This document shows, one piece after another, positions 26,801 to 64,000 of a DNA stretch of 64,000 nucleotides (within the stretch, counting starts at the first letter, position 1; every line of letters starts with the position of its first letter). This stretch comes from Spirodela intermedia. Lineage: Eukaryota; Streptophyta; Magnoliopsida; Alismatales; Araceae. Made by a program: the position numbers and the translations under genes. The stretch lies in NCBI GenBank assembly GCA_902729315.2, contig LR746279.1, positions 3,380,001 through 3,444,000 on the forward strand, read 5' to 3'. A model generated the notes under the pieces. It was not told where the DNA came from and did not search any database. It saw only the letters and a program-made list of their open reading frames with translations.

Positions 26801-26892
26801 GCAGCGGGCACCGGACCCTCCCCGTCCCCAGCCCGCCCCTCCTCGTCCCTCATATCGGGGCCAGCTGCTGCGATCTCCACGGGCGCCTCCAT
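20848..26892 (-). CDS. SUD1: SUD1/DOA10-type membrane E3 ubiquitin ligase
   Basis: Exons in transcript order: 26614-26892, 25155-25850, 23548-24306, 23246-23457, 22767-23147, 21962-22119, 21710-21873, 21488-21634, 20848-21393. These join in frame to 1113 aa (Arabidopsis SUD1 is about 1108). The N-terminus has an acidic stretch, then a RING-CH finger (C49, C52, C66, C68, H76, C79, C92, C95). Many membrane segments follow, as in the roughly 14-TM DOA10/TEB4 family. The protein sits in the ER membrane and ubiquitinates proteins for degradation; in Arabidopsis it influences HMG-CoA reductase activity and cuticle formation. The C-terminus (last about 35 aa) is His/Gln/Asp-rich with DHHHHTLQHVEQQ. 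The start MEAPVEI is chosen because it immediately precedes the acidic/RING region; the frame is open further upstream. Exons 1 and 7-9 are GC-rich, and the middle exons are AT-rich. Confidence 0.93.
21664..21690. repeat. (GAA)n tract in SUD1 intron
   Basis: About nine GAA units lie in the intron between the coding exons 21710-21873 and 21488-21634. On the coding strand this is a TTC-rich pyrimidine tract before the acceptor at 21635-21636. It is probably length-polymorphic. Confidence 0.9.
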
Positions 26893-27126
26893 CGCGAAGG
26901 GGGAGCGAAGCCGGTCAGCGGAGAAGAACCTCCGACCGAACCTCCCACCGAACCTCCCACCGAACGGAAGAGAGGAAATGAAAACTAGTGAAATACAAAA
27001 TACATATAGAGATGGCTGCTGGACGACCCAAGCCACTACGAATTTGACACGTAACACTTTGCACAGAGAGAGAGAGAGATTAGAACGAACCATGTCGGTA
27101 TGGGTAGGCTCGGGCGTCGTCCAAGG

Positions 27127-27129
<3 letters not shown>

Positions 27130-27161
<32 letters not shown>
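27130..27161. repeat. (GA)n microsatellite upstream of SUD1
   Basis: About 16 GA units lie about 240 bp upstream of the SUD1 start codon, so within its promoter or 5' UTR (CT on the coding strand). This repeats the arrangement seen upstream of CLF. Confidence 0.95.
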
Positions 27162-27162
<1 letters not shown>

Positions 27163-27164
<2 letters not shown>

Positions 27165-28399
27165 CTCTCTCGAACCCAAACCCTGAATGCTGGGCCGGTT
27201 CGAGGTTCCGTGGCCCATTTCTCTTCCTCAGTGCGGTCCAGCCTACAGATTCGTCTCAGTTCCACCAAATGGGCCGGACCAGGGCCCTGACGAGTGGTAG
27301 ACCCCGAGCCAGGTTGACACCTCCGGCATGGCACCTGTGGCAATAGGTCATAGGAGAGAGAGGGACACTAAAGTGGTGACCAGTTGCCTACACATGAGAT
27401 TCAACTTCTCTTAGCATAGAAGTTTTTGTTCCTTTATCCATTCAATTTTATAAGGACGCGGGTGTGTATTAGTTTTCAGCCCTGACCTTCAAATTATAAT
27501 TAAAAAAATATTATTTTTATTACCACCAATTATTATACATAAAGCCACATGTAGATCAAGAAGGGAAGATTGAATTGATCAAATCTAATTTATTTAGTTT
27601 TCTCGTCTTTCTAATTTCTCACTTTTTTTTCTTAATTTCCCAAATTCAATAAATTTTATATTAATTTTGCCTATTAATTTCTCAGCTACTATGCTCTACA
27701 AGGACACTCCGCGTCCCTGAGAAATAAGTCGTGCTTGATGAATATAAATTTTTTTTCACTAGGGTGGCAACTCAAAAAAGAAAAAAGGGTGTTGATGAAT
27801 TATTATATTTTGATGAAGAAATTGATTGATTACTTATGATTTCTAGGTTACAACCCTTTAAACGTTCAGATACTTCTAGTTGATTTTCAGTTGGGATGAA
27901 ATTATCTCTTGATCAGTTTGCAATCTCAACTTCAACCATGTGATTGTCATCGGAGCTTTTGAATTTCAATCTAAAATCTTCTTGGAGTGGCATGAAAGCA
28001 CTATAGATAATAGATAATTGGGTGAGTCTTTGTTTTAAATGGGCAAGAAATGCTTGATTTATACGTTTAATTTTGATTTTTCCCTTTAAAGAAAGGATTT
28101 TTGGTATATAAGAGAAATAATAGCGTTCGTGCAGTCGTGCTGTGGACCCGTCGTTGTACCCATTCTTTCTAGGGCATGAAGAGGAAGGATCCGGGCTTTG
28201 AGCCAATCTGGGCTCTGGAAGAAGTCAGCCCCAAGGTCATTCTGTGAAGAAGGCTACTAAACATGGAGGCCTGATCATATCCGAGGCTTATTTCGAAGAG
28301 AAGACATGGAAGACAGAGGAGGTGGTGACGTAGAGTAGACCACATATATGCACAGCCACGTTAACAGCCCTACAAGCGAGAGAGTGAGAGGAAGGGGAG
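27163..28399. other. Intergenic region upstream of SUD1, no gene seen
   Basis: A GC-rich part to about 27360 probably belongs to the SUD1 promoter. After that the sequence is AT-rich. A 97-codon frame on the minus strand (27913-28206) has no recognisable domain and atypical composition. I see no RNA gene. Confidence 0.4.
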
Positions 28400-29219: not shown

Positions 29220-31529
<2,310 letters not shown>

Positions 31530-31639
31530 GAATCCCTCCCTCGTTCCTGCTACGTTCTTCCAAGGGCGGTGGACGCAACCAGAGAGAAGGCGGCAGGGGA
31601 AAGCAGAGATTGGGGCCGTGGAAGAGCAGGATGGGGCCG

Positions 31640-31660
31640 GGCTTGTTTATATAGACGTGG
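31640..31660 (-). promoter_or_regulatory. TATA box and ACGT element of RD21
   Basis: On the minus strand TATATAAA (31653-31646) lies about 117 bp upstream of the ATG, giving an expected leader of about 85-90 nt. Directly upstream of it is CCACGTC (about 31660-31654), an ACGT-core word of the kind bound by bZIP factors. That would fit the stress induction known for RD21. Confidence 0.6.
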
Positions 31661-41272: not shown

Positions 41273-41950
41273 ATGAGGGGTAATTTAAATTTTATGTTAG
41301 AGAGAGTAGCAAGAAAGAAGGATCAACAAGCCCTATTTGTGATGCTTGGAGCGGTGTTTGAAGACATTCACTCGCAACTTGATATCATCAAAATAGTGAA
41401 AGAAATGTGGGAACTCCTCAAGTCAACAAATGTGGGAGTTGCTCGCTTCACGAAATCAAGACTTCAAGGTCTCAGATGAGATTTTGAGATGTTGCAAATG
41501 GGAGATGAAGAGACTATCAGATTTCTCTGGAAAATTGTCTCGAGTAGTTACTCAAATTAGAAATTTGAAAGAAAAGATAGAAGAAAGCATTGTTGTCGCA
41601 AAACTTCTCAGAGAAATTCCTGCAAAGTTTGACTCCATCACTACCTCTCTTGAACAATTTGGTGATATAGATTCAATGCCTTTTGAAGAAGTAGTGGGAT
41701 CACTAAAAATCTACAAAGAGAAGCTAAAGACTCGTGAGTAGAGAAAAAATGAATAAGTCCTCTTTTCACATGATATCAAGAAATCAAGAAGAGAACGTAG
41801 TTGAGGTACAGGTCATGGCCGAGGTAGAAGAAGAGGCAATGGTAGAAGTGCTGATGAGAACTGAAAACCTCGACACAAATCTAAGGTAAAATGTTATAAT
41901 TGTGACAAATTGGGACATTATGCTTTTGAATGTTATGTAGAGAAAAAGAG
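41273..41950 (+). pseudogene. Copia gag with zinc knuckle
   Basis: Gag of the UBN2/RVT-gag type: KDQQALFVMLGAVFEDI, then WELLKSTNVGVARFTKSRLQ, and, after a frameshift, VVAKLLREIPAKFDSITTSL and VVGSLKIYKEKLKTRE. A CCHC knuckle CYNCDKLGHYAFEC is at about 41.89-41.94 kb. Confidence 0.85.
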
Positions 41951-42049
41951 GAGACAGCTCACCTTGCTAATATTGAAGAAAATGTTGAATCCACACTTCT
42001 CATAACAGAAATTGATGATTTTTTTCTACAAGGAACACGAAACTCAGGT

Positions 42050-43330
42050 TGAAGAGGGAATGTGGTACCTAGATACTAATGCCACAAACCACATGACAAG
42101 TAGATGAAGCTTGTTTTGTGATCTTGATGATTTACTAGGTGGTGTAGTAAAGTTTGGTGATGAATTCAACATTGACATCTTTGGCAGATGAAGTATTTTT
42201 GTGAATTGCTAGGATAGAAGTAAATTGAAGCTTAGTAGTGTCCTATACACCCCTAGACTCAAGACCAACATTCTCAATCTCGGTTGTCTAGATGATCAAT
42301 GATTCAAGATAGTGTTGGGATCTGGTTCCCTTACTATCTATTATCAGTACAAAAGACTTATTAAAAGGTGAAGAAGACAAATGAAAGACTATATTTACTA
42401 CATTTATAAATTAAAAAATAGTCTTATTTCAAAAGGGTGCCATGAAGTAGATTGGAGATGGCATAGAAGGTATGGACACTTATATTTCTATTCATTGAAA
42501 AATCTCGCCTCTCGAAACATGGTGAAAGGATTGCCTATAATGAACATCTTTGATAATCTCTATCGAGACTATGTTGCTAGTAAGCAACACAAAAGCCCAT
42601 TCCCATCCTCTTTTGAATTCAGAGCTAGTACAGCACACTTGACCTTATTCATGAAGACATCTGTAGGCCCATCTCTCTTACTACTTATGGAGGATACATG
42701 TACTTTTTGTGGATGACTACTCAAGGCTGATGTGGGTTGCAATGTTGAGGTAGAAAAATGAAACTTTTCAAGCATTTATGAAGTTCAAGATAATGACTAA
42801 TCTAGAGAAAGGTGAAAAGGTAGGAATTCTAAGAATTGATCAAGGGGGAGAATTCACTTATGCTGAGTTTTCTTTCTTCTACATTCAACATGGAGTCATA
42901 TGACAACTCTCTGCCCCTTATTCATCTCAACAAAATAGCATTGTAGAAAGGAGGAACATAACATTCATGGAGATGGTTCGAAATATGTTGAAAGAAAAAA
43001 ACTTATATCCTGAACTTTGGGGTGAAGCTGTGAGCATGTGTCTACATCTTGAATCGATCTCCCACTAAGAGCCTAGATGGAGCTACATCGTATGAAGCTT
43101 AGACCAGTTCAAAGTCAAATGTAGCTCATCTTGTAGTGTTTGGCTCACTGGCCCATGTGAGGACACTCGGACAATGACTGATGAAACTACAAGATAGAGG
43201 TAAACCTATGCTCTTCATAGGCTATAAAGTTACCACGGAGGATTATATGTGCTATAATCCACAAGAAGACAAATTTCACATCAATAGAGATATAATTTTC
43301 GAAGAAGATAGCAAGTGGGACTAGAATCAC
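42050..43330 (+). pseudogene. Copia protease and integrase region
   Basis: Protease start MWYLDTNATNHMT (DTNAT for the usual DSGAT), then the pre-integrase HRRYGHLYFYSLKNLASR. Then come integrase core pieces around 42.6-43.1 kb, including an SQQNSIVERRN-like motif, and the integrase C-terminal part to about 43.3 kb. Frameshifts and stops are numerous. Confidence 0.7.
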
Positions 43331-49660: not shown

Positions 49661-50149
49661 ACATGCAATGTGAGGAAAATGTGACGCGATGGCCGTTTTA
49701 TGATTTAAAAAACCACAAACGAGTTAGGCTGAAGTCAACAAGGGGGCCCGGAACAGATAATGTTGATATGACAAGTAGCTCAGTTATAGCCAGATGAAAG
49801 AGAAAATGCAGATAGTACATGTATTATCTTAAGCCCTGACATGTGGTAATTATTTCTTAGTGATGAAAAGGCAGTGCAAGTTCTCTTTCGTATACTCTCG
49901 TTAGTTCTTAGGTCAACCTTCTTCCGCCTTGTGGTCAGTCAACAATACATATCGTGGCCCTTCTCGTCATTACTCTTTTCACTGAGTTTGTCATAGTGAA
50001 CGGCTGAGCTGGTAAACTCAAACAATCAAGAATCTGTAGCCACTTGGACGGTCTTCTTCTGGTGATACGTGTCGTGTAAAAGTATGACTGAACAGACCCG
50101 GTTTCCAACTAGAAAAAGACTCAAGAGTCGTGGAGTGACCTCAGTTCTC

Positions 50150-50440
50150 TAGCTCGATTCCGTTTTCAAATAAGAAATGGGTGGAAAGCTCAGGGCGAGA
50201 GCGTGAGGCAACGCAGCCGCGTTTCTTTGGCGGTGACGGTGCCCACAGTTTTCTTGCTAGTGCTCTACGATGCTGCGATACGACAGCGGGAACTACTGTC
50301 AATGACACTAGCTGGCCCTTTCGCATTGTTGTAAGTAAGAGGCATTCTGCATCTCCCCACCGCTTGCACACTAAGAGAGGTGCACGTCATCTACACGCCG
50401 CCTTCGGACCATATAACTGCCAGCTTCTGGATTAAAATGC
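50150..50440 (+). pseudogene. Possible secreted-peptide relic (frameshifted)
   Basis: This is a GC-rich island in AT-rich DNA. ATG 50177 starts MGGKLRARA and then stops. One frame over, RVSLAVTVPTVFLLVLYDAA is a plausible signal-peptide core. Its placement and composition resemble the intact peptide genes at 53.75, 58.3 and 63.5 kb, but the homology is weak. Confidence 0.25.
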
Positions 50441-51359
50441 TAATGTGACATATTATGTCTTCTCTCCGTTTGTCCCTCTTTTATGTCTGTCCGTCTGTCT
50501 TTCTGTGACTCTTTCCTTCTCTCAATTTTTATTTCTTCAACTTTTTATCAGATGAAAAATCCCTAGGTCTTGGTTTATATCGGCCTTCACTTTTTCTTCT
50601 ACAACGATTTGCAAATCGGATATCACTGTTTGGAAGAAATTTGTTCTACATTCCATTTATCTCCTGGTTCCTGACCATGTTACGTATCAAGCTTATTGAA
50701 TAACAAGGATGAAGAGCGGGTTAGTCGCGAAAGGAAAGAGTAACATTGTCAGCATCTAAAGTACCAGAAGATCCCATCGTCAGCAGTTGAAGTGTTGTAT
50801 AACTAACGAATGGATTTGTGATGAAGTGACGTCTTGACATCTTTTGGAAAAACATTAGCTCAATAAATCCTGCTGAGAAGAAAGCTGAATTTTATTACCT
50901 GGCTCATGATGAAATCAATTCTATTAGAACGACTCAAAAATAGTAAATTATTCCGCACTCAAATTTTCCTTTTATCATACTTCGGTCACAGCCAAGTTGT
51001 GTGCTATTCTTCAGGCCTCTGACTTGTTCATAATGTTCAGGGGTCAACAACTGGATCTTTAGCTGCATTACCACCAACATTAATATTTTCTAATAGTTAC
51101 GATTATTGATTTTTATGTTCTTTTAGAAGTAAACTTTGTTATTTCTCGACGTCCAGCCATCAACACTTACGAAATTGTGGAGAATCATATAATCAACGCA
51201 GAGATAAAGCGGAAGTACTTACTCCAAGAAAATGAAAAAGGATAGATTTCCCGTGAACTACAGAAATGAGGCTTGTCATTATTCTCGCCATCAAGGAAAA
51301 GAAGATCTATTTCCTTCATTGTTAATAAATGATAAATATTATAATTGATATTTGGAAAG

Positions 51360-51860
51360 TTAAGTAATTAGTCGGAGTTTCCTTTATATGTAGATAGCAC
51401 ATGGCTTGGTTGCAACATATGGCCTGATTATTCCCCTATACCAATACTCTTATGGATGGATCCTTCATATGAAAGTCAGACCACAAGTTTGTTTCCGCGA
51501 TTTACGGGCTACTAAGATAGCTTCTTTACAGGGAATCGAAGCAGTGCCTTCAGGATCCTCCTACTTGCAGCGGTTTCATTATACCCATTAGACTATAGCC
51601 TTAACTATCAGAGGCATTGTCTCTTAAAAACGGTTCTGACGATTGAGAGATTTGCCTTTTTGTCTATATAATGCAAACAGTTTTTCCCTGAACTCTCTCG
51701 GTTTAAATAAACTCTCTCAGTTTAAATAAAGAAACCAATTGCTCAGTTTCCAAGCTATATATAGATTGGCGGACAACGGTTAGGTCTTTCTTCGGAAGGA
51801 AAATTTATCAATGATTGATAACCGTGGGACATAAATATCATCGAATAGAGAGTGACAATG
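51360..51860 (+). repeat. Segmental duplication unit Y, copy 1
   Basis: Matches 61680-62140 in order: GCTTGGTT, ATGGCCTGA, GAAAGTCAGACCACA, CCTTCAGGATCCTCCTACTT and, after a gap, ATATAGATTGG and ATTTATCAATGATTGAT. The copies are clearly diverged. Confidence 0.75.
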
Positions 51861-52009
51861 AATTTTTAATGAGTCGATTTCGTCATTAGCGAATTTGTGA
51901 AATGGTAAATATGTCAGTAAAAACAAGAACCTGATTCTACTTTAGATGATAAAGGAGAGTATCTGTGTAGAGAAATGTGGTCAAAGGCTTGATTAAGTTC
52001 CTATGATCC

Positions 52010-52895
52010 CTTAGCGGTTATTTTTTGTAGTGGGGGTCTACCCGTGATGTTTAGGATACTTGATCAATTATGCTGAAATTCGGTCCTCATTTAGTTGTCG
52101 ATTCATTTGAATGGCTTTCAATTTTTGTGGATTTTTCTGCCCTGGTGTTTCTATGGCCCCAACTTCTCGCTGTACCCTCCCTCAGTGATGGTGGTGGGCG
52201 TCAGCTTGTCTATTCGAGAAAAGAGGTTGTTCTCTCTTTAAGTCACTCCCATCAGAAACCTTCAGAAACCTTAGATCCTTAGTTTTCCTTCAACATATAC
52301 TGAAAATACGATAGGAACACGGAAGTTGACTTATGTCAGTTTTCTTCCTTTGGTCACAGGAAACTTTAAAGAGTCTATGTACCGAGACGTTGAAAATTTA
52401 GGACCTATTTGTTGGTTCTATCACGTTTAATATGAGTTTCATTGATCTAAGAAATTGGAAAAACATTAGGGATGCGAAAGAAGACTGGCCCAGTGTTCTT
52501 TGTTCATACTCGAGCTGTCCTCGTCTCAACAATCACTAGTGCCCTGTCACGCACACGAAAGTCTCTTGTTCACACGGGATCTCTAACATCAACGGCTCGA
52601 CGGATTCTGGGTGAAACCTTCGAAGTGCGTGTGTCGAAAAGTCAAAATTTCAAGAGCTGTTCCCTTGGACCTATGGTGCTTGGTGGTGACCCATTCACAC
52701 TGAAGGTTCGGCATGAGGAAAAAGCCTAACTCGATCCTTTGCCCATGCTAAAACTGTTGTCCTGTCAACAATGACCATTTTACATGATGTACAAGAGTCT
52801 CCCGTTTTAGAAAGTCATTCTTAGCTGCTTTACTTTTTAGTCAACTGAATTTGCCATCACCGTGTTGAATTGAAAGAGTGGAAAGTTGTTGAGAG
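52010..52895 (+). repeat. Segmental duplication unit Z, copy 1
   Basis: About 880 bp closely similar to 57280-58165. It includes GGTCCTCATTTAGTTGT, GGCCCCAAC, TTCGAGAAAAGAGGTTGTTC, AAATACGATAGGAACACGGAA and TTAGTCAACTGAATTTGCC. It is the best-conserved duplication of the cluster, apart from unit P. Confidence 0.9.
52130..52282 (+). CDS. Short ORF tail shared by both Z copies
   Basis: The frame from FVDFSALVFLWPQLLAVPS through SRKEVVLSLSHSHQKPSE to TLDP-stop is kept in the second copy (57405-57557) with conservative changes. A hydrophobic start followed by a polar tail is peptide-like. However, the upstream starts differ because of two single-base indels, and no promoter is clear. The unannotated start may be ATG 52070. 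Confidence 0.25.
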   Translation, partial: DFSALVFLWPQLLAVPSLSDGGGRQLVYSRKEVVLSLSHSHQKPSETLDP

Positions 52896-52915
52896 AACAA
52901 CTTCAGATCACATCT

Positions 52916-53085
52916 AAGAAATTGGAAAAACATTAGAGATGCAAAAGAAGATTGGCCCAGTGTTCTTTGTTCATACTCGAGCTGTCCTCGTCTCAACAAA
53001 CACTAGTGCCTTGTCAGTACACAAAATTCTCTTGTTCACATGGAATCTCTAACATCAACGGCTCGACCAATTCTGGGTCAAACCT
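52916..53085 (+). repeat. Third partial copy of part of unit Z
   Basis: AAGAAATTGGAAAAACATTA, GCCCAGTGTTCTTTGTTCAT and the following ACTCGAGCTGTCCTCGTCTC recur here. The other copies start at about 52449 and 57725. This copy replaces the place where the peptide gene at 58305 sits in the other block. Confidence 0.85.
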
Positions 53086-53680
53086 TTGAAGCACTTGTGC
53101 CCAGGGAAGTGTGTTACAACATCCGTTAGTGGTCTACCCGTTCCATCGTTTGAATAGTGAAGTGTGTTACAACATCCGTTGTGCCCAGGGAAACCAGAAA
53201 GTCGTCATTTCAAATACTTGTAATGTTCTCGAAGTTTTCTAAGTACTCTTACGACTTGGTCACGATGTTACAACATCCGTTGCGTATGCAAAAAAGCATA
53301 TCATTATCTAATAAAAAAGACGATGCGGTTATTCTTAAGTTTAGGTAGGATTATCTTTGTTATGCTTGTCATGATGAAGAAGAGTGGTCCTGATCAATGG
53401 TTCTTTCAAATTAATACGTGATATCACATCAGGTTTAGAAAGAACCATATTCAACAGAGTTTCGTTGTACTACGTCAGCCTTTAATTGTTTCCAGCTTTC
53501 ATCTTTTTAAACGCAAAGAATGGGCCCATTCTCATTTATCACCCGTTGCCAATTTCCAGCTTTGGTTTTCATTCCGTCAAACAGTTGCCGATTTTTTTAT
53601 TACGAATCTCCACAGATTAGCGCGTTTCCTTTGTTTCAGGAAGTTGACTGTGAAAATGGTCTTGAACCACTTGTAGAGGC

Positions 53681-53686
53681 TATATA
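53681..53686 (+). promoter_or_regulatory. TATA box of peptide gene 1
   Basis: TATATA in GGCTATATACTG lies 71 bp before ATG 53752, so transcription would start near 53713. The duplicate at 63.4 kb has CTATCTGTTGG here and lacks the box. Confidence 0.5.
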
Positions 53687-53751
53687 CTGAAAGAAGTGCA
53701 GAGAGTTTTATCGAGCTTTGGATGGTTATACAAGGGAAAGAGGGGGAGCCC

Positions 53752-54003
53752 ATGGCGATGATGCGGATGATGCAGGCAAGAGAAGGGACCGTGCTGGCAA
53801 TTTTGCTCTCAGTTCTTTTACTGTCGTCCACGCCTGGCGGTGCAGCCCAGATTCTAGCGAGAATGAAGACAGTTTACCATGCCTCTGCTTTACCAGAAGC
53901 ACGTCCAAAATTACCGGTTAGATACTCGCGAAATCTGCGAGATCAACATGCTGTCAAGTCCGAGCCGCAACCCAGGCCGGTACCATTTCCATGCTGCCCC
54001 TAG
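53752..54003 (+). CDS. Putative small secreted peptide precursor, copy 1 (83 aa)
   Basis: Single-exon ORF. MAMMRMMQAREGT is followed by a hydrophobic core VLAILLSVLLLSS and a probable cleavage near TPGGAAQ. Then comes a polar section with ASALPEARPK and a Pro-rich end PRPVPFPCCP. This is the build of a plant signalling-peptide precursor. I do not recognise the family. I chose ATG 53752 because of its strong context (GCCCATGGCG) and because it directly heads the signal peptide; an in-frame ATG at 53722 would add 10 residues. The stop is followed by sequence shared with copy 2 at 63488. Secretion is inferred from the signal peptide alone, and expression is unknown. Confidence 0.6.
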   Translation: MAMMRMMQAREGTVLAILLSVLLLSSTPGGAAQILARMKTVYHASALPEARPKLPVRYSRNLRDQHAVKSEPQPRPVPFPCCP

Positions 54004-54798
54004 GATGGATATCTGTAATGGACTTTTCTAGTTTGCTTGCCCAGTTCCCTTTCTCTGTGTTTTATCAACAGCCAGTCTGCTTGTCGATCTACTACAATAC
54101 TTAAATAACAACAATGATTCCTCCTGTATCGTTAATAAGGAAACGATTTCGTTTTTCAGTTAACATTTCTCGAGGTGTCATGGTGTACTGAAAGAGAAAG
54201 TTCACACTGCTGCTAAAAAAATTGTTCATTTCATGTCTGAAACGGGGCGGGGCCTGTACCAATTTGTTAGAAAGCCGACCAATGTCTAAGTTCTGAGAAC
54301 CATGTCTAGTTCACGTTCCGTTACGAAGTGTTTTGGTTCAAGTGATGGACCAGAATAGGGATCACGAGATTGGGTTAGTCGGGAGAGAAGGCAAAAAAGA
54401 ATCCTCCGCCCATGATCCGTGACCTTTTTCCACCTGATCCTTGTGAAATTAACAGGATAAAACTGATATTTCAGTTTTGTAATACGCTGATGCTCCTTGC
54501 GCGACGCGTTGAAGGTGTGCCACGTGGATGACTGAAAAACGATGAACGATTGACAGACATGCAGTTTCATAGAGATCTAAGGGTATACTAAATCTAAAGA
54601 TAGCAAATTTTTGGACTTTCTGAATGCCTTGACTGTTATGATCCCTCGGACTCGGTCATCGTTCCCGGGTGAACGTCATTACAAAATCAAACTTCTAGTC
54701 GTTGAAACTCAAGAAACATGACTGCGGCGATGGTCTTACTCCGTTGCTACGTTCTTAAACGAAACAGTACCATCTCTAGGGCATCCAGCCGCAAAGAG

Positions 54799-54862
54799 AT
54801 GCCCGGATTCCCCTGGTAACGGCTCTTTTACTTCTCTTGGTGCTGTCGTCGTCTGACAGTAA
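54799..54862 (+). pseudogene. Possible peptide-gene relic (frameshifted signal peptide)
   Basis: ATG 54799 opens MPGFPW-stop. One frame over, IPLVTALLLLLVLLSSSDS is a clear hydrophobic signal-like core, then a stop soon after. It lies in a small GC-rich island, like the intact peptide ORFs. The overlapping minus-strand frame (54736-54999) has no known domain. Confidence 0.25.
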
Positions 54863-55069
54863 AACGCCTTGATGGGATCAGGCTTGCTGTGTACTGTCAC
54901 ACCAAACGAAGAAGCTGGAGGCTTTGACGGCCGAAGGCAGCACCGACCTCGCAGCGCCGGTATTAAAGGATCTCTGTATCTAAAAATAATTGGATTCAAT
55001 GATTTACCTGGGTCCTTTGATCTATGACTGCCTCAGTCACGTCTTACGTACGTATCAACCCTGTATTTA

Positions 55070-55526
55070 CATTGTAATGCCCAGTACGATTTGAACTGAT
55101 ATTAAATGCAAAGTACCATGAAGACAACCAGGAAATATGTGAACTGTCATGATCGCCAATAAAATATGTTAATACTAGATGCACAACATTATGGGAATGA
55201 CCTTCCTCAATACAGGTCCAAGGTAAAATTACATTAAAAAACTGATATATTCCCGGAAACACCTGTTACGAGGAGAGAAAAAATTTCTCACGAAGAACAC
55301 TGCTGTGGACCAAGAAATGTTATGTTATACTTGCTTAAATTATTTTTGACTACCCCTCTATGTCTGATCTCAGTGTCTACTTTAATTCCTTTCCATCAAA
55401 ATAAAATATTAATTGTAGGGGACGACCATATTTACATGATCATGTTGTCTGTGGGATGAATGAGTCTAAACGGAAAATATCTAATAGTACAAGATAAACA
55501 AAGACTAGTACATATTTGTCTTGGTC
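55070..55526 (+). repeat. Segmental duplication unit X, copy 2
   Basis: This is the counterpart of 49240-49660. It is cut off on the right after ACATATTT by a Copia insertion. Confidence 0.8.
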
Positions 55527-57282
55527 CCTAGATGGTTGGATAATTGAAGAGAGTGGGGGAGTGAATTGCCTTTTAATTTTCTTAAAAGTAATATATATAT
55601 ATTATTTTTTTATCTATTAATATCTCATTTATATCTTTATATTAATATATAAATATAAAACAAACCAACATGGGATAGTTCACTCTAGATTTTTAGAGTG
55701 ATTCAGTTAACTCCTTTGACATACATCTACATTTGAGGACTCCACCTCTATTTTAGTATTCCACTCGAAGAATTCACCCTTGATTTTATGGGAGTCAAGA
55801 ACTGTTTATGTTCTTAGGCTTGATGAGTTTACCACCAACCAACCTAAAACTCTAACCTAGAGTTCCAAGGTCTTTAGGTCATTTTCTTGTAAGCACATTA
55901 TAAGTGCCTCAACTGACTATGTGATTGCATTGACGACACATCATTGATGTCTCAATCAGTCCACATACAATAATTAATATGATTACATTGATGGCAAACC
56001 ACATGTCTCAATTAGTTCACACATCACAAACTAAGGTAGAAATAATAAATAACATAAAACAATTATATTTCAGCCTTCAAATCTTGTTTTCTATTTACCA
56101 AGAGTTGAAGGTTTTTACTAATATTGGGCTAAAGAGATGTCCACAACTCTCTTAAGAAATCAATCTCTTCTTTAATTCCTAGAAACTTGAGTGAGTTCAC
56201 AAACAGAAAAAAATCATTATTGATATTGTAGCTATAACCTAAAACTGTGCTCTTCTCTCCTGACCTAATTTTGGGTGAACTATCTTATTTATAAGTAGGG
56301 GGGGCAGATTCTCTTTGGCCTTTATTTGGTCAAATAGTTGAGTTAAAATGGGCTTGAATTGCTTGGGTGCAGATCTTGAAAAATAGAGATTAAGAGTGAA
56401 AAATTCATAACTCTCTTGGTACTCTAAATATTTAGGAACCATTTTTAGATTTAAATTTTTCTAAATTTAATTTCCATTTAGTGACTTCATGCCTATATTT
56501 GTTATGTATTTCTTTTGAGATAATAATCATTTTAGTATGAAAGGTCATATTCTAGACCATTATACTCTTGTGCAAATATATAAAATCAGTAATCTTGTAA
56601 AATTAATATCAAATCAAGAAACCATAGAATATATCATCAATAATAAAACATTACTTGTGTAAATATAGAGGAGGAGATAGAGATAATGGACCATAATGGG
56701 CTAAGAGTTCGATGACATTATCAAACACTCTCCCTTAAGCTAGAGTATATAAGTCAAATATGTTCAACTTAGTACATGTGATGTCATAGGAGATTCTGGC
56801 CAAAATTTTCTTGAAGACATCTACAAGCTGATAAGATGTGGCCACATGAGAAGTAGAGATGAGGCTAGACATATCTTTACCTTGATAGTAGTAATAACTA
56901 ATCTCAATATACTTCATATACTCATGAAAGGTGTGATTGCTGATTATCATAATGCATGGGGATTAGAGAAAGAGAAGAGATGCCAAAATCTTTGAGAAGT
57001 GATTGAAGCCATATCATCTCCCGTGGGGTCTTAGTCATAGCTTAATACTTAAACTCTGCACTGGAGCAGGACACCACTCTCTATTTTTGAGATTGTCAAG
57101 TGACGGGATTACCTCCGACATATGTGTAGTAACTCATAGTAGACTTTCGGTCTCCCTTGTCACTTATATACCCAACATCAGAATAGACTTTGACATGGAG
57201 ATGGCCATGTTGTCAATAAATGAGTCTTTTCCATAGGACTTGCTTGATGTATGCTAGAACCCATAGAACTCCCTCCTAGATG
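55527..57282 (-). mobile_element. Truncated Copia insertion (LTR plus RT/RNase H end)
   Basis: On the minus strand 57280-56730 reads LAYIKQVLWKRLIY, VKVYSDVGYISDKGDRKS, SYYTYVGGNPVT, then HEYMKYIEISYYY and HVATSYQLVDVFKK, the RT end and RNase H of Copia, with stops. The purine-rich AAGGGAGAG is followed by TGTTTGATAATG, the probable start of an LTR of about 1.2 kb reaching to about 55.53 kb. It separates duplication units X and Z, so it arrived after or with that duplication. Confidence 0.7.
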
Positions 57283-58165
57283 ACCCCTTAGCAGTTATTT
57301 TTTGTAATGGGGGGTTACTTGTGATGCTTTGGATATTTGATTAATTATGCGGAAATTCGGTCCTCATTTAGTTGTCCATTCATTTGAATGCTCTCAATTT
57401 TTGTGGATTTTTCTGCCTTGTGTTTCTATGGCCCCAACCTCTCGCTGTACCCTCCCCCAGTGATGGTGGCAGGCCTCAGCTTATCTATTCGAGAAAAGAG
57501 GTTGTTCTCTCTTTAAGTCACTCCCATCAGAAACCTTCAGAAACCTTAGATCCTTAGTTTTCCTTCAACATATACTGAAAATACGATAGGAACACGGAAG
57601 TTGGCTTATGTCAGTTTTCTTCCTTTGGTCACAGGAAACTTTAAAGCGTCTATGTACCGAGACGTTGAAAATTTAGGACCTATTTGTTGGTTCTATCACG
57701 TTTAATATGAGTTTCATTGATCTAAGAAATTGGAAAAAACATTAGGGATGCGAAAGAAGACTGGCCCAGTGTTCTTTGTTCATACTCGAGCTGTCCTCGT
57801 CTCAACAAGCACGTGCCCTGTCACGTAAACGAAAGTCGCTTGTTCACACGGAATCTCTAACATCAACGGCTCGACAGATTCTGGGTGAAACCTTTGAAGT
57901 ACGTGTGTCGAAAAGTTAAGATTTGAAGAGCTGTTCCCTTGGACCTGTGGTGCTTGGTTGTGACCATCGCACTGAAAGTTTGGCATGAGGAAGAACCCTA
58001 GCTCGATTCTTTGTTCACACTTAAACTGTTGTCCTGTCAACAATGACCATTTTACGTGATGTACAAGAGTCTCCCTTTTTAGAAAGTCATTCTTAGCTGC
58101 TTTACTTTTTAGTCAACTGAATTTGCCATCACCGTGTTGAATTGAAAGAGTGGAAAGTTGTTGAG
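57283..58165 (+). repeat. Segmental duplication unit Z, copy 2
   Basis: This is the counterpart of 52010-52895. It begins GACCCCTTAGCAGTT right after the Copia remnant. It carries the second copy of the short ORF tail (57405-57557) and leads directly into the peptide gene at 58305. Confidence 0.9.
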
Positions 58166-58225
58166 AGAACAACTCCAGATCCCATGTTCCATATTTCTCG
58201 TTCGACGGTCGTCTGAACCTGTGTC

Positions 58226-58232
58226 TATAAAG
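58226..58232 (+). promoter_or_regulatory. TATA box of peptide gene 3
   Basis: TATAAAG in TCTATAAAGGGGG lies 79 bp before ATG 58305. The expected start near 58257 falls after the in-frame ATG 58251, which supports 58305 as the translation start. Confidence 0.55.
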
Positions 58233-58304
58233 GGGGACGTGGCAGGAAGGATGAACGATGTCCCTGTTGGTTTCGTAGTCAGAAAAAGGAGAGCTTCGTG
58301 CCAC

Positions 58305-58499
58305 ATGGCGGGACAGGTGATACCGCGAACAAACTCACCCGTCCCTGCGGCAGTGCTCCTATTGTTTCTCTTGCTCATCTCCATGTCGTCCATTTGGGCT
58401 CGTCCGCTGACCAAGGAGTCTACTTTATCTTTCCTTGATTTTCTGAAATCAATGAAGCCAAAGGTGGGTACGCACCCTCCTGCTCCATCAATACCTTAG
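58305..58499 (+). CDS. Putative small secreted peptide precursor (64 aa)
   Basis: The ORF starts MAGQVIPRTNSPVPAAV, with hydrophobic core LLLFLLLISMSSI and a probable cleavage after IWA. The mature part begins RPLTKESTLSFLDFLKSM and ends KPKVGTHPPAPSIP-stop. The architecture (signal peptide, spacer, short Pro-rich C-terminus) is that of a plant signalling-peptide precursor. The tail faintly recalls IDA-like PPSAPS cores and ends P-A-P-x-x-P like the peptide at 63488, but I cannot assign a family. Start context is CACATGGCG. It lies right after unit Z, with a TATA box in the expected place. Confidence 0.6.
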   Translation: MAGQVIPRTNSPVPAAVLLLFLLLISMSSIWARPLTKESTLSFLDFLKSMKPKVGTHPPAPSIP

Positions 58500-58739
58500 C
58501 TCAAAACTCATCCATAAGGCCATCTGATATTCTATCTCTCTTTTCTTCAACTGTAATACGCGTTTTCCATTGTTTGGAGGGGGAAGTGTGTTACAACATC
58601 CGTTATGTCCATGGAAACCAGAAAGTCGTCGTTTCAAATATTTGTAGAGAATGTTCTAGAAGATGTCTAAGTACTCTTACGACTTGAAGTATTTTCAGAT
58701 CTCTTCCGAATTGTGTATATGTTCTTTCATTCGTTCACG

Positions 58740-59006
58740 TTAAATAACCGGCGAACTGCTGCACCTCGAGTAGAACGTTAACCCCCTCTGGAAAGGTCGG
58801 GGAGAGAGTAATGTGAACGGTGTCATCCTCAGCGTCTCGTCCCAGTTCAGGGTGCCCATTTCCGGATCGACAGCGGCGGCTTGCCAGCTTCCAACCGTCA
58901 AGGTAGCAACTTCGTACAGTGGCAGTCCAGCGAGCTGTGCTAACTGGAAACGCACCCGAGGGTACAGGAATATGTTTTGATTATGTAGGCGCTGTCTAGT
59001 TATCAT
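58740..59006 (-). CDS. Hypothetical ORF in GC-rich island (88 aa)
   Basis: The minus frame includes VRFQLAQLAGLPLYEVATLT and GSWQAAAVDPEMGTLNWDE. Its composition is GC-rich against AT-rich surroundings. There is a P450-like ETLRMTP...PR pattern, but nothing else supports that family. It may be a relic or chance. Confidence 0.25.
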   Translation of the reverse strand: MITRQRLHNQNIFLYPRVRFQLAQLAGLPLYEVATLTVGSWQAAAVDPEMGTLNWDETLRMTPFTLLSPRPFQRGLTFYSRCSSSPVI

Positions 59007-59439
59007 AATGTCAGTGATATCTTACGAGGCACTCGTGGATAGCACAAGTGAAATTCTGTTTGTTATGAATGTGGTTGAAGGTTTGTCAGACCTTAACATG
59101 CTTAGACACTTGCCCCCTCCAGTCCAAGCCTTGTGATCAGATTCAATTTTCATTTTTGTACTAACCGGTATAGCGAACGTTCTATCGTCTTTTTCAATAT
59201 TGAACGAATATTTTCGGTACCATTTAGGCTTTAAGGAAAATATTAAATGTCAAGCAAAAAGGGGTAGATATTGAAGAATATATGGCTATGCATAAGTAGT
59301 GGTACGAGTTGGAAGATAAAACCGCATCAGCAGATGAATGAGAAAGAAACAGAAACAAACAATTATGATGATTCAGTCAGTTCTATGGTTTGTTGACGCC
59401 GATATATAGCCACAGAATAGTCCAATTGCCGAGATTTTT

Positions 59440-59700
59440 TTGTCCACATTATGGTGTTCGGTTGAGACAATTTTAACCGATTTTCTCTACAAACATGGAA
59501 CGTCAACATGGAATGGTAAGGTTTATTTCGATCTCTTAACATGCCATCGCTAAACCATTATCCAACCGCCAGTTCGTGGTGGCTCGTTGCGACGAAAGTC
59601 ACACAGCTCGCGGTGGCGCAAATAGAAGGCCGATCTCCGCGCCAAGGCTTCGCTCTTAACATGTCAGCAAGCAAATTTCTAATCGGAGCCTAGTTGAAGC
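59440..59700 (+). repeat. Segmental duplication unit V, copy 1
   Basis: Shares with 60540-60770 TTTTGTCCA, TCGGTTGxGAC, CTACxxxCxTGxxAACATG, ATGGTxxxGTTTATTTxGATCTC, AACATGCCATCGCT and GTTGCGACGA...GTGGCGCAAA, with many changes. Confidence 0.7.
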
Positions 59701-60539
59701 TGTCATTAAAATAATAAAATGGAAAGAAAGAAGATGGATGAGATATGGATGTAAATATGGATGTACTCGTTAGGCGTACATTTAGTAAATTCTCTAATAC
59801 AAGTCCTGCGTGTGAAATAGATATGTTTCCTTAAAGCCAAGGAACTGATGCTATTGGATTGTCAACCCTCTCTAGATGTCATCTTAATCCTGAAGCCTTG
59901 TGCCATGCTAAATTTGCATATCAATGAAGATGGATGGTGTAAAACCTTACGAATCATCCAAGTATTGGAGATGATTTTCCGACGAACTGGAGTGATCACC
60001 TGGATTGTGTTCACATCTTTCGAATTTTGGGAATTTAAAACTACTGATAAGCGCACTGAATTATGATCTATAAGATATAGTATTTCGTCTATGATCATTA
60101 CAGAACTTCCAAGATCATATAATTTGAGGTCAATTTAATTGTTAAATCTTGTTATCAACAAGACGAATATGTATTAAGTTAGGAACTAAGGCACTAGCTA
60201 AAAATATTGTTATCAATACTCCTTAGAGCGTCTTCAGATGTAAAAATATTGATATAATATTTGCATCTCAATCGTGAGGCTTAAAAGAAAAACTTTCTTG
60301 AGTTTTCGGACGATTAAATGCTTAGGGAAGCTTTCACGTAATTATACTTGCAGTAGAAAGTGGACGTGAGACTGTAGCATGAATGGATCGAATTAACTAG
60401 TGGTTGTTGCCTGCTCAGAAGGCTTGTATGGTTGGAATTTTCATAACGGCTGAAAGCTGTACGGTTGAAGTTGAAATCAGTAAAGATTTGATTAGAGAAA
60501 GTAATTTTTTTCGGGCGATTACCTATAGAGTAGTCAAAT

Positions 60540-60827
60540 TGCTAAGATTTTGTCCATCCTTATCCGGCTCGGTTGGGACTCTTTTAACTGAATTCCTCTA
60601 CGGTCCTGTCAACATGCAATCCAATGGTTTATTTGGATCTCCTAACATGCCATCGCTTCAGCATCCAACAGCTAGTGGCGTTAAAACCCTATTTCGTCCG
60701 TTTCTGCGTTGCGACGAGAGTACGCAGTTCGTTGTGGCGCAAACAGAAGGCCTTCCTTGTGCTGTCCTCCTCCCTTTTCTCATCTCTCTTGGTACTATCC
60801 TCATCCCAAACTACAGCTGACCTCTAA
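60540..60827 (+). repeat. Segmental duplication unit V, copy 2, with signal-like frame
   Basis: This is the counterpart of 59440-59700. The frame from ATG 60624 ends with KAFLVLSSSLFSSLLVLSSS and QTTADL-stop, a hydrophobic segment similar to the relic at 54.8 kb. A longer overlapping frame (60404-60820) shows no domain. It is probably a decayed peptide gene. Confidence 0.4.
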
Positions 60828-61679
60828 CCTGCCTTTCAGGGGGTCAACGGTCAATTGCGCAGTTTAGTTGGAAGCACTTATCCATGAGAACCAAATTGCC
60901 TGGGTGCTTCAAGTTCTGGCTGCCTCAGCGACTATTCGCCTGCTAATTGCCTATTTTCTACAATGACGACGCTTGTGGGAACGGAGATCAGTAAAAGATG
61001 AAGTTTGATTTATCTCGTTGACTGGAAGATATTATACAATGAGATGCCTATGGTAATTCGTCTTAGTAATGGAATTGAGAATTATTTTTAGTTCTGTCTA
61101 AACGCAAGGCATTTGGATGCCATTTGTTGGCCAAGAGAGGCAGAAATGACTGTCATGGAAATTCATCACAGGTTATGACGAAGCAAAGTGAATAACAATT
61201 CGTCAACGGGTAATTTATCAGCAGTTAAAAGTATTAAGCTATCCTTCAGCTGCCTGAATAGTCTTTTTATCGCGCTCTTTCCCCCCCGCCTCGCTGAAAA
61301 TCGCCAGGAGTCTTCAAGGAAAAATGGATTCATTGAATGATCAAGCAAGATTGTTCTTTCTCTTTTCAAATCAAGGTATGAAAGAACCAGAGTTAGCCGA
61401 ATTTATTGATTGCTAAGGCACAGTCTTTTAGCAAAAGCAGGAAAACAATCCTTTATGTACTTTGCCTAACATCAGGTGAAGGAGCCATATCACTATTTCC
61501 CGAATGACATCGGATTCATAAATCAGCTAGAGAATAAAGAGAATACACTTGAAGGAGAATAAAGGATTAGAATTACCCGTGAACTAGAGAAACAAGGGTT
61601 CCTTAAACCAAAGAAGACTAGATATACTCTCCTTATTATAATTTTTTTTTAAAATTATGAAATATCTTGAGGAGTTAAG

Positions 61680-62140
61680 TATTGTAATTATCAGACATTC
61701 CTTGATCTGAAAATAGAAGATTGCTTGGTTTCAACTTATGGCCTGAAAATATTGAGTTATATGGAAAGCTACTTCATGTGGAAGTCAGACCACATATTGG
61801 CTTCCATACTTTACTAATTGTCAGGACTGGTCTTTTACATGCTAGGGAAGCATTACCTTCAGGATCCTCCTACTTCTTGCCGTTAGGATATAACTTTATA
61901 TATCTGAGAGATAATATCATAAAAATTCTTCTGATGATTCAGACTTTGGCCTTGTTGACAAGATATCGGTAACAGTTCAAGTCACTAAATAGTGAGGATT
62001 TATACTCATCCAGAAATTATGAACTCCCTTAGTTAGCAGTTGCTCATCTTCGAAGCTAAATATAGATTGGTGGACAATGATGAGGGCCGTCTGTCTGTGG
62101 AGAATTTATCAATAATTGATGACTGTGGGAATAAGTATCC
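61680..62140 (+). repeat. Segmental duplication unit Y, copy 2
   Basis: This is the counterpart of 51360-51860. Confidence 0.75.
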
Positions 62141-62268
62141 TTATCTCTTATCTGAAAAATGTCAACCCTTCGAGAGCATGGCAGGACTAGGATCATTCAA
62201 TCCATCTCCATCTCCATCTCCTCATTTATCTCACTAGAAACCCCCGGCCTGGCATTTCTTGTCCACCT

Positions 62269-62273
<5 letters not shown>

Positions 62274-62303
<30 letters not shown>
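62274..62303. repeat. (GA)n microsatellite
   Basis: A GA run of about 15 units, followed by open but domain-free frames to about 62.7 kb. Those frames could be a first exon or 5' UTR, but no protein family is seen. Confidence 0.9.
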
Positions 62304-62308
<5 letters not shown>

Positions 62309-62639
62309 GAAAAATGCTGGGGGAGAAAGAATGGGGCATCTTCGATCAATCTATCGCTCTCCACAATCACATTCTCTCTCCTCCGGCGGCGACGAACGCC
62401 CCATTCGCCCAAATCATCCATCCGATACAAACGATGGATTTCTTCTCGATTTCTCCCGGATTCAGCCGCTACGGAAGCTGAAATTCATGTACGAAATCGT
62501 CTCATTCTTCGTTCGATACAAACGGCGAAGAACATCTTCCGAGGATCCTTCTCCGGACGCCGCGGCATGCTCGGCTTCGAACCACAGCCGTCGTTCGATT
62601 CTAGCAAGTGAAATTTTTTGGGATCGTCATTAATCGGCC

Positions 62640-63179
62640 TGGAGATAGTGTAGGAATCAACTAGGTGCACCGCACCTGCACAGATCTATCGAATTCAGGC
62701 GGAAATTCGATCGACCACCGTTCCGCCCAATCTTCCGTAAGATTTTAATCTTTGCACGACTTTTACGTTCTTCTTATTTATCAACAGTTTGAGTCAATTA
62801 GAATTTGTGTTACGAACAATTTATTCCTGTAAATTAAAATCTAATTCAAATTAATTTGGCTTTGATTTTGACAAATACGAGTTCGACGTATTTCCGGCGA
62901 CTCGAATTTAGGGGTGTTCGTCGCGAGCTGACGTCCAATGACGTCATAATACATAATTTAGTATTTTATAATTATTATTAATTTTCGCAATTAAAAATTC
63001 TAAAAAGACTAATCTATCAACTGGAAATTAAAAACATAAGTAAGTAATTTTTTTATCTTCCGTGTGTTCGACCTGGGAAACCCTATAAAATTACTTATTT
63101 CTAAATTAGCTTATTTTCATTATTTATAAATTTTAAATTTGGTGAATTTTCTTAAAAATGACAGAAAATATTCATACAC
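62640..63179. other. AT-rich spacer before unit P copy 2
   Basis: I see no ORF, RNA gene or transposon ends. A short GC-rich part around 62640-62740 leads into AT-rich DNA. Confidence 0.35.
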
Positions 63180-64000
63180 TACGTCAGCCTTTAATTGTCT
63201 CCAACTTTGGTCATCCTTTGTCGATTTCCTGCTTTTGGTTTTCTTTCTGTCAGACATTTGCCGAATTTTTTATTACGAATCTCCACCGATTAACGCGTTT
63301 CCCTAAAAAATAAAATAAAATAAAATAAAAATAATTAAATAATAATAATAAAAAAACGCGTTTCCCTTGTTCCAGGAAATTGAATGTGAAAATGGTGTTC
63401 AACCACTTGTAGAGGCTATCTGTTGGAAGAAGTGCAGAGAGTTTTGTCCAGCTTTGGATGGTGATACAAGAGAAAGAAGGGGAGCCCATGGCGATGATGC
63501 GGATGATGCAGGCAAGAGAAGGGACCGTGCTGGCAATTTTGCTCTCAATTCTTCTACTGTCGTCCACGCCTAGCGATGCAGCCCAGATTCTAACGAGAAT
63601 GAAGACAGCTTACCGGGCCTCTGCCTTACCAGAAGCACGCCCAAAATCACCAGTTAGATACTTGCCAAGTTTGCATCCTCGAGCTCCTCGGATGTTCCAT
63701 CCGCGCCCCAAGCCGGTACCTGCTCCGTGCTGCCCCTAGGATGGATATCTCTAATGGACTTTTCTAGTTGGCTTGCCCAGTTCCCTTTCTCTGTGTTTTC
63801 TCAACACCCGGTCTGCTTGTCGATCTACTACAATACTTAAATAGCAATGATTATTCCTCCTGTGTCGTTAAAGGAAACGATTTGTTCGTTTCATGTCTGA
63901 AAGGGGGCTTGTACGAATCTATTAGAATGCCAACCAAGGTCTAACTTCTGAGATGTCAAGGCTTGTTCACGTTCCGTTGGCAAGTGTTTCGGTTCAAGTG
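63180..64000 (+). repeat. Segmental duplication unit P, copy 2
   Basis: This is the counterpart of 53470-54300 and continues past the window end. It contains an extra AT insertion with a (TAAAA)n run at about 63305-63330, duplicating the word AACGCGTTTCCC on both sides. Confidence 0.92.
63488..63739 (+). CDS. Putative small secreted peptide precursor, copy 2 (83 aa)
   Basis: Same length as the ORF at 53752. The signal peptide differs by one conservative change (VLAILLSILLLSS), and the probable cleavage region reads TPSDAAQ. After ASALPEARPKSPVRY the sequence becomes LPSLHPRAPRMFHPRPK and ends PVPAPCCP. Copy 1 has SRNLRDQHAVKSEPQPR at the corresponding place. The open frame is fully kept in both copies. 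The proximal TATA box of copy 1 is absent here. Family and function are unknown, and secretion is inferred. Confidence 0.6.
   Translation: MAMMRMMQAREGTVLAILLSILLLSSTPSDAAQILTRMKTAYRASALPEARPKSPVRYLPSLHPRAPRMFHPRPKPVPAPCCP

Follow-up and report, generated by a model that had tools for sequence, protein, structure and literature searches.

The window, a stretch of 64,000 nucleotides from Spirodela intermedia (C16:3380001-3444000), contains two open reading frames (ORFs), copies A and B, each predicted to encode a small secreted-peptide precursor (Table 1). A first-pass annotation had described them as ORFs of equal length with common beginnings and ends, and their translation bears this out: each precursor has 83 aa, and the two share the start MAMMRMMQAREGTVLAILLS and the end PVPxPCCP. 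The precursor plan of the family to which they belong, termed type-1, consists of a hydrophobic N-terminus, AQILTRMKTAYQGSALP and a Pro-rich SHPPAPPVP-like C-terminus, with or without PCCP. The hydrophobic character of the N-terminus and its conserved small residues were read by sequence from the family alignments. A third copy, C (L010, C16:3448295), is the tandem partner of A and lies 4.3 kb beyond the end of the window. The same region also carries a second small family, type-2, with a C-terminal motif similar to that of type-1. Other ORFs of the window contain SET, RING-variant, MARCHF6 C-terminal and copia gag domains of Pfam, as well as a papain-type protease with granulin, a set in keeping with a plant; the MARCHF6-like and RING-variant ORFs are perhaps parts of one E3 ligase gene.

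Table 1. Features of the window discussed in the text (positions are those of the window; strand and basis are given where available).
Feature	Position	Strand	Basis
ORFs with MARCHF6-like C-terminal domain and RING-variant domain	20851-27255	-	Pfam
Papain-type cysteine protease exons, with I29 propeptide and C-terminal granulin domain	29369-31646	-	Pfam
Copia-type retrotransposon remnants, gag and gag-pre-integrase domains	41400-42713		Pfam
A/C tandem duplication, A side as aligned; outer arms 8.2% diverged	49991..56211	+	
A/C duplication, inner block; 1.9% diverged outside core	51536..54620	+	
TTGACT hexamer of copy A; near this position in 8/22 loci; absent in B	53644..53649	+	
TATA-like box of copy A, CTATATA; spacing kept in 14/22 loci	53680..53686	+	
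Copy A, 83-aa peptide precursor ORF (MAMMRMMQ...PRPVPFPCCP)	53752..54003	+	translation; genome family search
Copy A, putative signal-peptide region: hydrophobic LAILLSVLLLSS, with small residues ahead of QIL	53752..53847	+	inferred from sequence and family alignment
Copy A, pro-region (QILARMKTVYHASALPEARPKLP), moderately conserved	53848..53916	+	family alignments
Copy A, hypervariable core and tail; 17/75 differences and 6-bp indel against copy C	53918..53998	+	
Mosaic tract: ten consecutive informative sites, C matches B and not A	53960..53991	+	
Type-2 precursor ORF (MAGQVIPRTNSP...KVGTHPPAPSIP), small secreted-type, ends THPPAPSIP	58305..58499	+	
A-rich AAAATAAAAT-type insertion upstream of copy B; absent from A and C	63303-63356		
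Copy B, TATA-like position, reads CTATCTG	63416..63422	+	
Copy B, 83-aa peptide precursor ORF (MAMMRMMQ...PKPVPAPCCP)	63488..63739	+	translation; genome family search
Copy B, hypervariable core and tail	63654..63734	+	

Copies A and B differ mainly in one short segment just before the common tail, as had been noticed at first pass: at 53930-53977, 21 of 48 sites differ (44%), with no indel, against 6-12% in the adjoining flanks. Ungapped counts gave 11/92 differences in the 5' flank (53660-53751), 12/174 in the first 58 codons (53752-53925), 22/52 in the core (53926-53977), 4/26 in the tail (53978-54003) and 5/87 in the 3' flank (54004-54090), and 48-bp windows placed outside 53926-53977 contained at most 7 differences (step 6, 446 ungapped bases). 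The conservation that had been claimed for the flanks is true of the 3' side, but the upstream flank of B carries the A-rich insertion and an altered TATA-like box, and farther upstream 19 of 117 sites differ, with gaps present.

DNA and protein searches of the 136.5-Mb assembly (32 contigs) identified at least 22 type-1 loci, including C16:3348016 and C16:3042843. With 21 loci located within 0.96 Mb of C16 (3.04-4.00 Mb) and one on C17, type-1 is a clustered multigene family. The C17 locus is L022 (C17:3485883), and no further copy was found outside C16. Its 5' flank does not resemble that of L018 (p-distance 0.56 and 0.63), and the gene may thus have moved and left its promoter region behind. 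A match at C6:2043671 (E 0.27) was dropped on inspection. The frame is open from the MMQA-equivalent codon to the stop in 17 of the 22 loci, and 8 of these 17 end in PCCP. A majority consensus built from 16 members is MAxxMMQAKGGxVLAILLSILLLLSTSADAAQILTRMKTAYxGSALPxAxSxSxGRxxxxxxxPSHPxAPPVPxPCCP. Searched with these members, a set of 5.77 billion proteins yielded two relatives outside the assembly (P0005 and P0006; 63% and 57% identity to L018 over ~90%, E 5e-20 and 2e-18), which keep the signal, the pro-region, SGGRRML and a C-terminal (S/A)HxPA.

Across all 22 loci (231 pairs), the mean p-distance is 0.425 in the core, 0.36-0.40 in the flanks and 0.30 in the pro-region. Since the core is only slightly more diverged than the flanks at this scale, its acceleration appears to be mainly a property of the subclade formed by the five PCCP copies A-E. 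The possibility that the whole family is equally hypervariable was rejected, as the core divergence of L018/L039/L020 and of L019/L036 does not rise above the flank range. Outside the subclade, 9 of 12 open ORFs have S[HN]xxAxP near the C-terminus; within it this motif is not kept, PCCP is fixed and the core is diversified, suggesting that A-E may have changed their target. In several members GRR or RR precedes the C-terminal part, a possible hint of proteolytic release of a mature peptide, although this was not seen in A, B or C.

Upstream of the ORFs, 14 of 22 loci have a TATA-like box between -81 and -87 relative to the anchor codon, with the same CTATATA in C as in A, and a TTGAC[CT] hexamer is located near -120 in 8 of 22; the TTGACT of copy A is a W-box-like hexamer. 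Copy B has neither the TATA-like box nor the hexamer, and L012 does not have that stretch at all. The missing TATA-like boxes of B and L012, together with five loci broken by stops or frameshifts (L019, L025, L026, L036 and L039) out of the 22, might indicate that type-1 loci are decaying, functionless tandem repeats with chance ORFs, with a core that looks fast through relaxed constraint and noise in the alignment. The family-wide flanks, nearly as conserved as the pro-region, and the omega near 1 of the signal and pro-region in the A-D clade (see below) are also consistent with decay. However, stops are absent over 50 codons in 18 of 22 loci, whereas neutral substitution would be expected to leave 9.0 +- 2.3 such loci. 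This comparison is indicative only, as the loci are related, and it takes L028 as open, its apparent stop being a gap-register artefact. The dN/dS of the signal region is 0.60 over the 17 ORFs (0.89 within A-E), and the layout is kept in the homologues from outside the assembly. Gap intervals in the core of the 17 open copies are all divisible by three (11/11), which is partly guaranteed by the choice of open copies, against 8/38 in the 5' flank, 22/56 in the 3' flank and, as counted, 2/5 in the signal and pro-region. Relaxation alone should, moreover, not push the core past its non-coding flanks, unless these were homogenised. Decay is regarded as an improbable explanation.

The contrast between core and flanks is stronger in the A/C tandem pair than in A/B. 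The two copies differ at 49 of 2533 sites in the inner flank, at 244 of 2990 in the outer arms and at 17 of 75 in the core, where a 6-bp indel is added (Fisher p = 8e-13 for the core against the inner flank, p = 1.2e-4 against the outer arms). Over 5598 aligned sites the most diverged 60-bp window is 53927-53992, with 17 differences and the 6-bp gap, and the highest count away from the core is 12. Thus, in A/B and strongly in A/C, the core does not simply share the divergence of the flanking non-coding DNA, which the first-pass annotation had named as the outcome that would speak against its reading. These region-wise figures suggest that the inner block, about 3 kb long, is younger than the arms or was homogenised, and the excess of the core over the outer arms indicates a core that predates the duplication or has changed faster than it.

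Gene conversion had been offered at first pass as one possible cause of this pattern. Among the 116 sites in 53495-54611 at which C matches just one of the other two copies, it agrees with A at 100 and with B at 16, and 10 of the 16 are consecutive; such a run occurred in 0 of 100000 shuffles. Sites before 53495 and after 54611, which align poorly to B, were left out of the test, as were C-private and three-way sites, so the run contains one uncounted C-private site. Lying within flanks where C equals A, the run looks like a short, B-like conversion tract in C, but an import into the A lineage, or a burst of change on A alone, could give the same pattern. L014, a more distant copy, agrees with B and C at 7 of the ten tract sites and with A at 3. 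In CDS 209-240 C differs from B at 1 of 32 positions and from A at 11 of 32; the former value is not unusually low, as C and B elsewhere differ at 10/165 and 11/153. Copy B was rejected as the donor of the whole core of C: the B-like part is confined to the ten-site tract and the upstream half is not B-like. A direct genome search for a donor of the core of A returned only A; since B and C also escaped this search, a diverged donor could have done so too.

Conversion or ectopic recombination alone, with no selection on content, might account for the same data if the flanks were homogenised, or a tract pasted in, around an older core. The slightly diverged inner block inside more diverged arms and the ten-site run are what such a process would leave, and synonymous changes are raised in the core and tail of A-C (3.5 of 18.5 sites). 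The branch of copy A is also long in the core on a neutral scale (0.318, compared with 0.054 in the signal and pro-region). On the other hand, the core exceeds even the outer arms, none of the 21 other aligned loci has an A-like core, and a B donor would leave unexplained four C-private sites, two three-way sites and the 6-bp deletion that are found in the core of C. Counts per segment in two independent pairs, A-C and B-D, raise a further difficulty. Non-synonymous differences (rounded counts) amount to about 24 of 98 sites in the core and tail against 23 of 225 in the signal and pro-region (p = 0.002), and synonymous ones (likewise rounded) to 4/34 against 9/81 (p = 1), so that the excess is only non-synonymous. 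Recombination without selection is, on balance, considered unlikely.

Diversifying selection, the other cause put forward at first pass, receives moderate support from codon models. Segments were tested by a purpose-written codon likelihood, with L012 left out because of its proline-repeat core. For A, B, C and D, omega is 4.2 in the core (p = 0.002 against 1) and 1.7 in the signal and pro-region (p = 0.17); with branch lengths shared between the segments, the estimates are 6.0 and 1.4, respectively (p = 3e-7). The core value for A, B and C alone is less decisive, being 3.15 (p = 0.034), 2.33 (p = 0.115) or 2.07 (p = 0.18) under three codon-frequency models. Omega of the core reaches 10.7 without A (p = 0.002), and is 3.8 without C (p = 0.014), 3.8 in L013/16/17 (p = 0.043) and 2.0 in L018/20/22 (p = 0.14). 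In the robustness sets, from which gapped codons were excluded, it is above 1 in 7 of 7 and has p < 0.05 in 4 of 7, uncorrected over the seven sets. Overall, omega is 2-11 in the core and about 1-2 elsewhere, with a significance that varies with the codon-frequency model and the taxa. In the A-D sets the signal and pro-region gave 0.97-2.1, and no purifying selection is visible there. Pooled counting over A-E, which includes the poorly aligning L012 as the fifth copy, gave a core dN/dS of 1.06, as synonymous distances in the core are likewise high. The codon tests assume a single tree, and recombination, which violates this assumption, can inflate tests on omega.

Hits to Pfam were weak for both families. 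There was one match for A and B (9.6 bits, cut-off 27), a best E of 0.0058 for the 16 members, to a phage family (first member 11.4 bits, cut-off 30), and one match for three type-2 ORFs (14.3 bits, cut-off 27). The 16-member profile had no match in PDB, no Rfam family reached its gathering score within the window, and copy B had no homologue among known proteins at E <=10 (3 candidates). Among the titles and opening abstract lines screened in a largely open-access literature, none describes type-1, and PPAPPVP and HPPAPP led only to unrelated papers. The family, known so far from this genome and the two outside relatives, is apparently undescribed. For type-2, a genome search gave seven further C16 matches down to E 0.7, several of them broken and one being a type-1 locus; the three type-2 ORFs found no relatives among the 5.77 billion proteins. 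One type-2 locus, L047, has two copies of the motif. As the profiles of the two families align only in the hydrophobic signal region, what links them is a short motif and position only, and the shared C-terminal motif may be convergent.

Several plant peptide systems have a comparable design. CEP, PIP, CLE, IDA and RGF precursors are built as preprohormones that end in a short peptide, which often contains Pro; type-1 precursors have a layout of this type and a Pro-containing C-terminus, although the signature motifs of those families are not known to occur in type-1 peptides. Prosystemin and HypSys are proline-rich, basic defence peptides, and type-1 peptides resemble them by description in both respects. 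Defensin-like peptides possess a fixed framework of at least four cysteines, unlike type-1 peptides, which contain at most one CC pair and no cysteine framework; cysteines number 0 or 2 in 15 of 17 ORFs, and the other two, L024 and L027, have a single cysteine in the run-on tail and in the signal region, respectively.

The design also resembles that of the Arabidopsis PROSCOOP precursors, though without homology. As described in PMC6382344 and PMC8448819, these are clustered paralogues of 72-117 aa with an N-terminal signal peptide, a variable middle and a short conserved C-terminal motif, present twice in some members, and they are lineage-restricted. Clustering, precursor size, variable middle, C-terminal motif, two-motif members and lineage restriction are the points of likeness, and the hydrophobic type-1 N-terminus with its conserved small residues may be a further one. 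PROSCOOP genes are reported to have two or three exons and are noted for the absence of cysteine (PMC6382344, PMC8448819), whereas a type-1 gene is one open frame, as read from DNA alone, and part of the family contains cysteines. No SxS was seen by eye in the conserved type-1 C-termini, which have SHxPAPP-like sequences and/or PCCP instead, and there is no shared Pfam or sequence match, the SCOOP sequences being compared by description.

Plant defensins, which are cysteine-rich antimicrobial peptides, are likewise small, clustered and diversified and, as type-1 products probably are, secreted (PMC5731061). It is possible, though rather less than likely, that type-1 products are themselves directly antimicrobial proline/arginine-rich peptides and not signalling ligands, a role compatible with the explanation preferred below. 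The post-signal parts of the 17 ORFs are basic (net charge +2 to +9) and contain 12-32% proline, and the secreted-type layout and the diversification fit such a role. The S[HN]xxAxP kept by most open ORFs outside A-E, however, looks like a recognised epitope, and the similar ends of type-2 ORFs, one of which has the motif twice, point the same way.

Taken together, A and B are members of a clustered family that probably encodes precursors of small secreted peptides. In the preferred explanation, held with moderate confidence, the core was diversified by selection plus conversion. The precursor would consist of a signal peptide, a moderately kept pro-region and a variable basic/proline-rich core, with a PCCP end fixed in the subclade. 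Selection would favour amino-acid change in the core, and short stretches exchanged by neighbouring copies, combined with homogenisation of the flanks, would move core differences and expose them. Judging from the layout, the precursor would be secreted and then cleaved, releasing from its C-terminus a basic, Pro-rich peptide of about 15-25 aa; in the apoplast, this peptide might serve for immune-type signalling or be antimicrobial. A more specific, and doubtful, extension is that the mature segment is an exchangeable cassette of lineage-restricted ligands: core pieces of 30-80 bp would be traded by conversion among neighbouring genes, selection would keep the cores different while the flanks are homogenised, and new variants would thereby arise in a possibly mostly clonal plant.

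If the precursors are transcribed and secreted, type-1 would be a plant peptide family in which the probable ligand is the part that changes fastest. The A/C pair is a natural experiment, with a flank difference of about 2%, nearly the same promoter region and signal, and a different peptide, and it could separate point selection, conversion or both in the diversification of plant peptide ligands. In a duckweed host, the origin of such diversity in a mainly clonal plant becomes a testable question.
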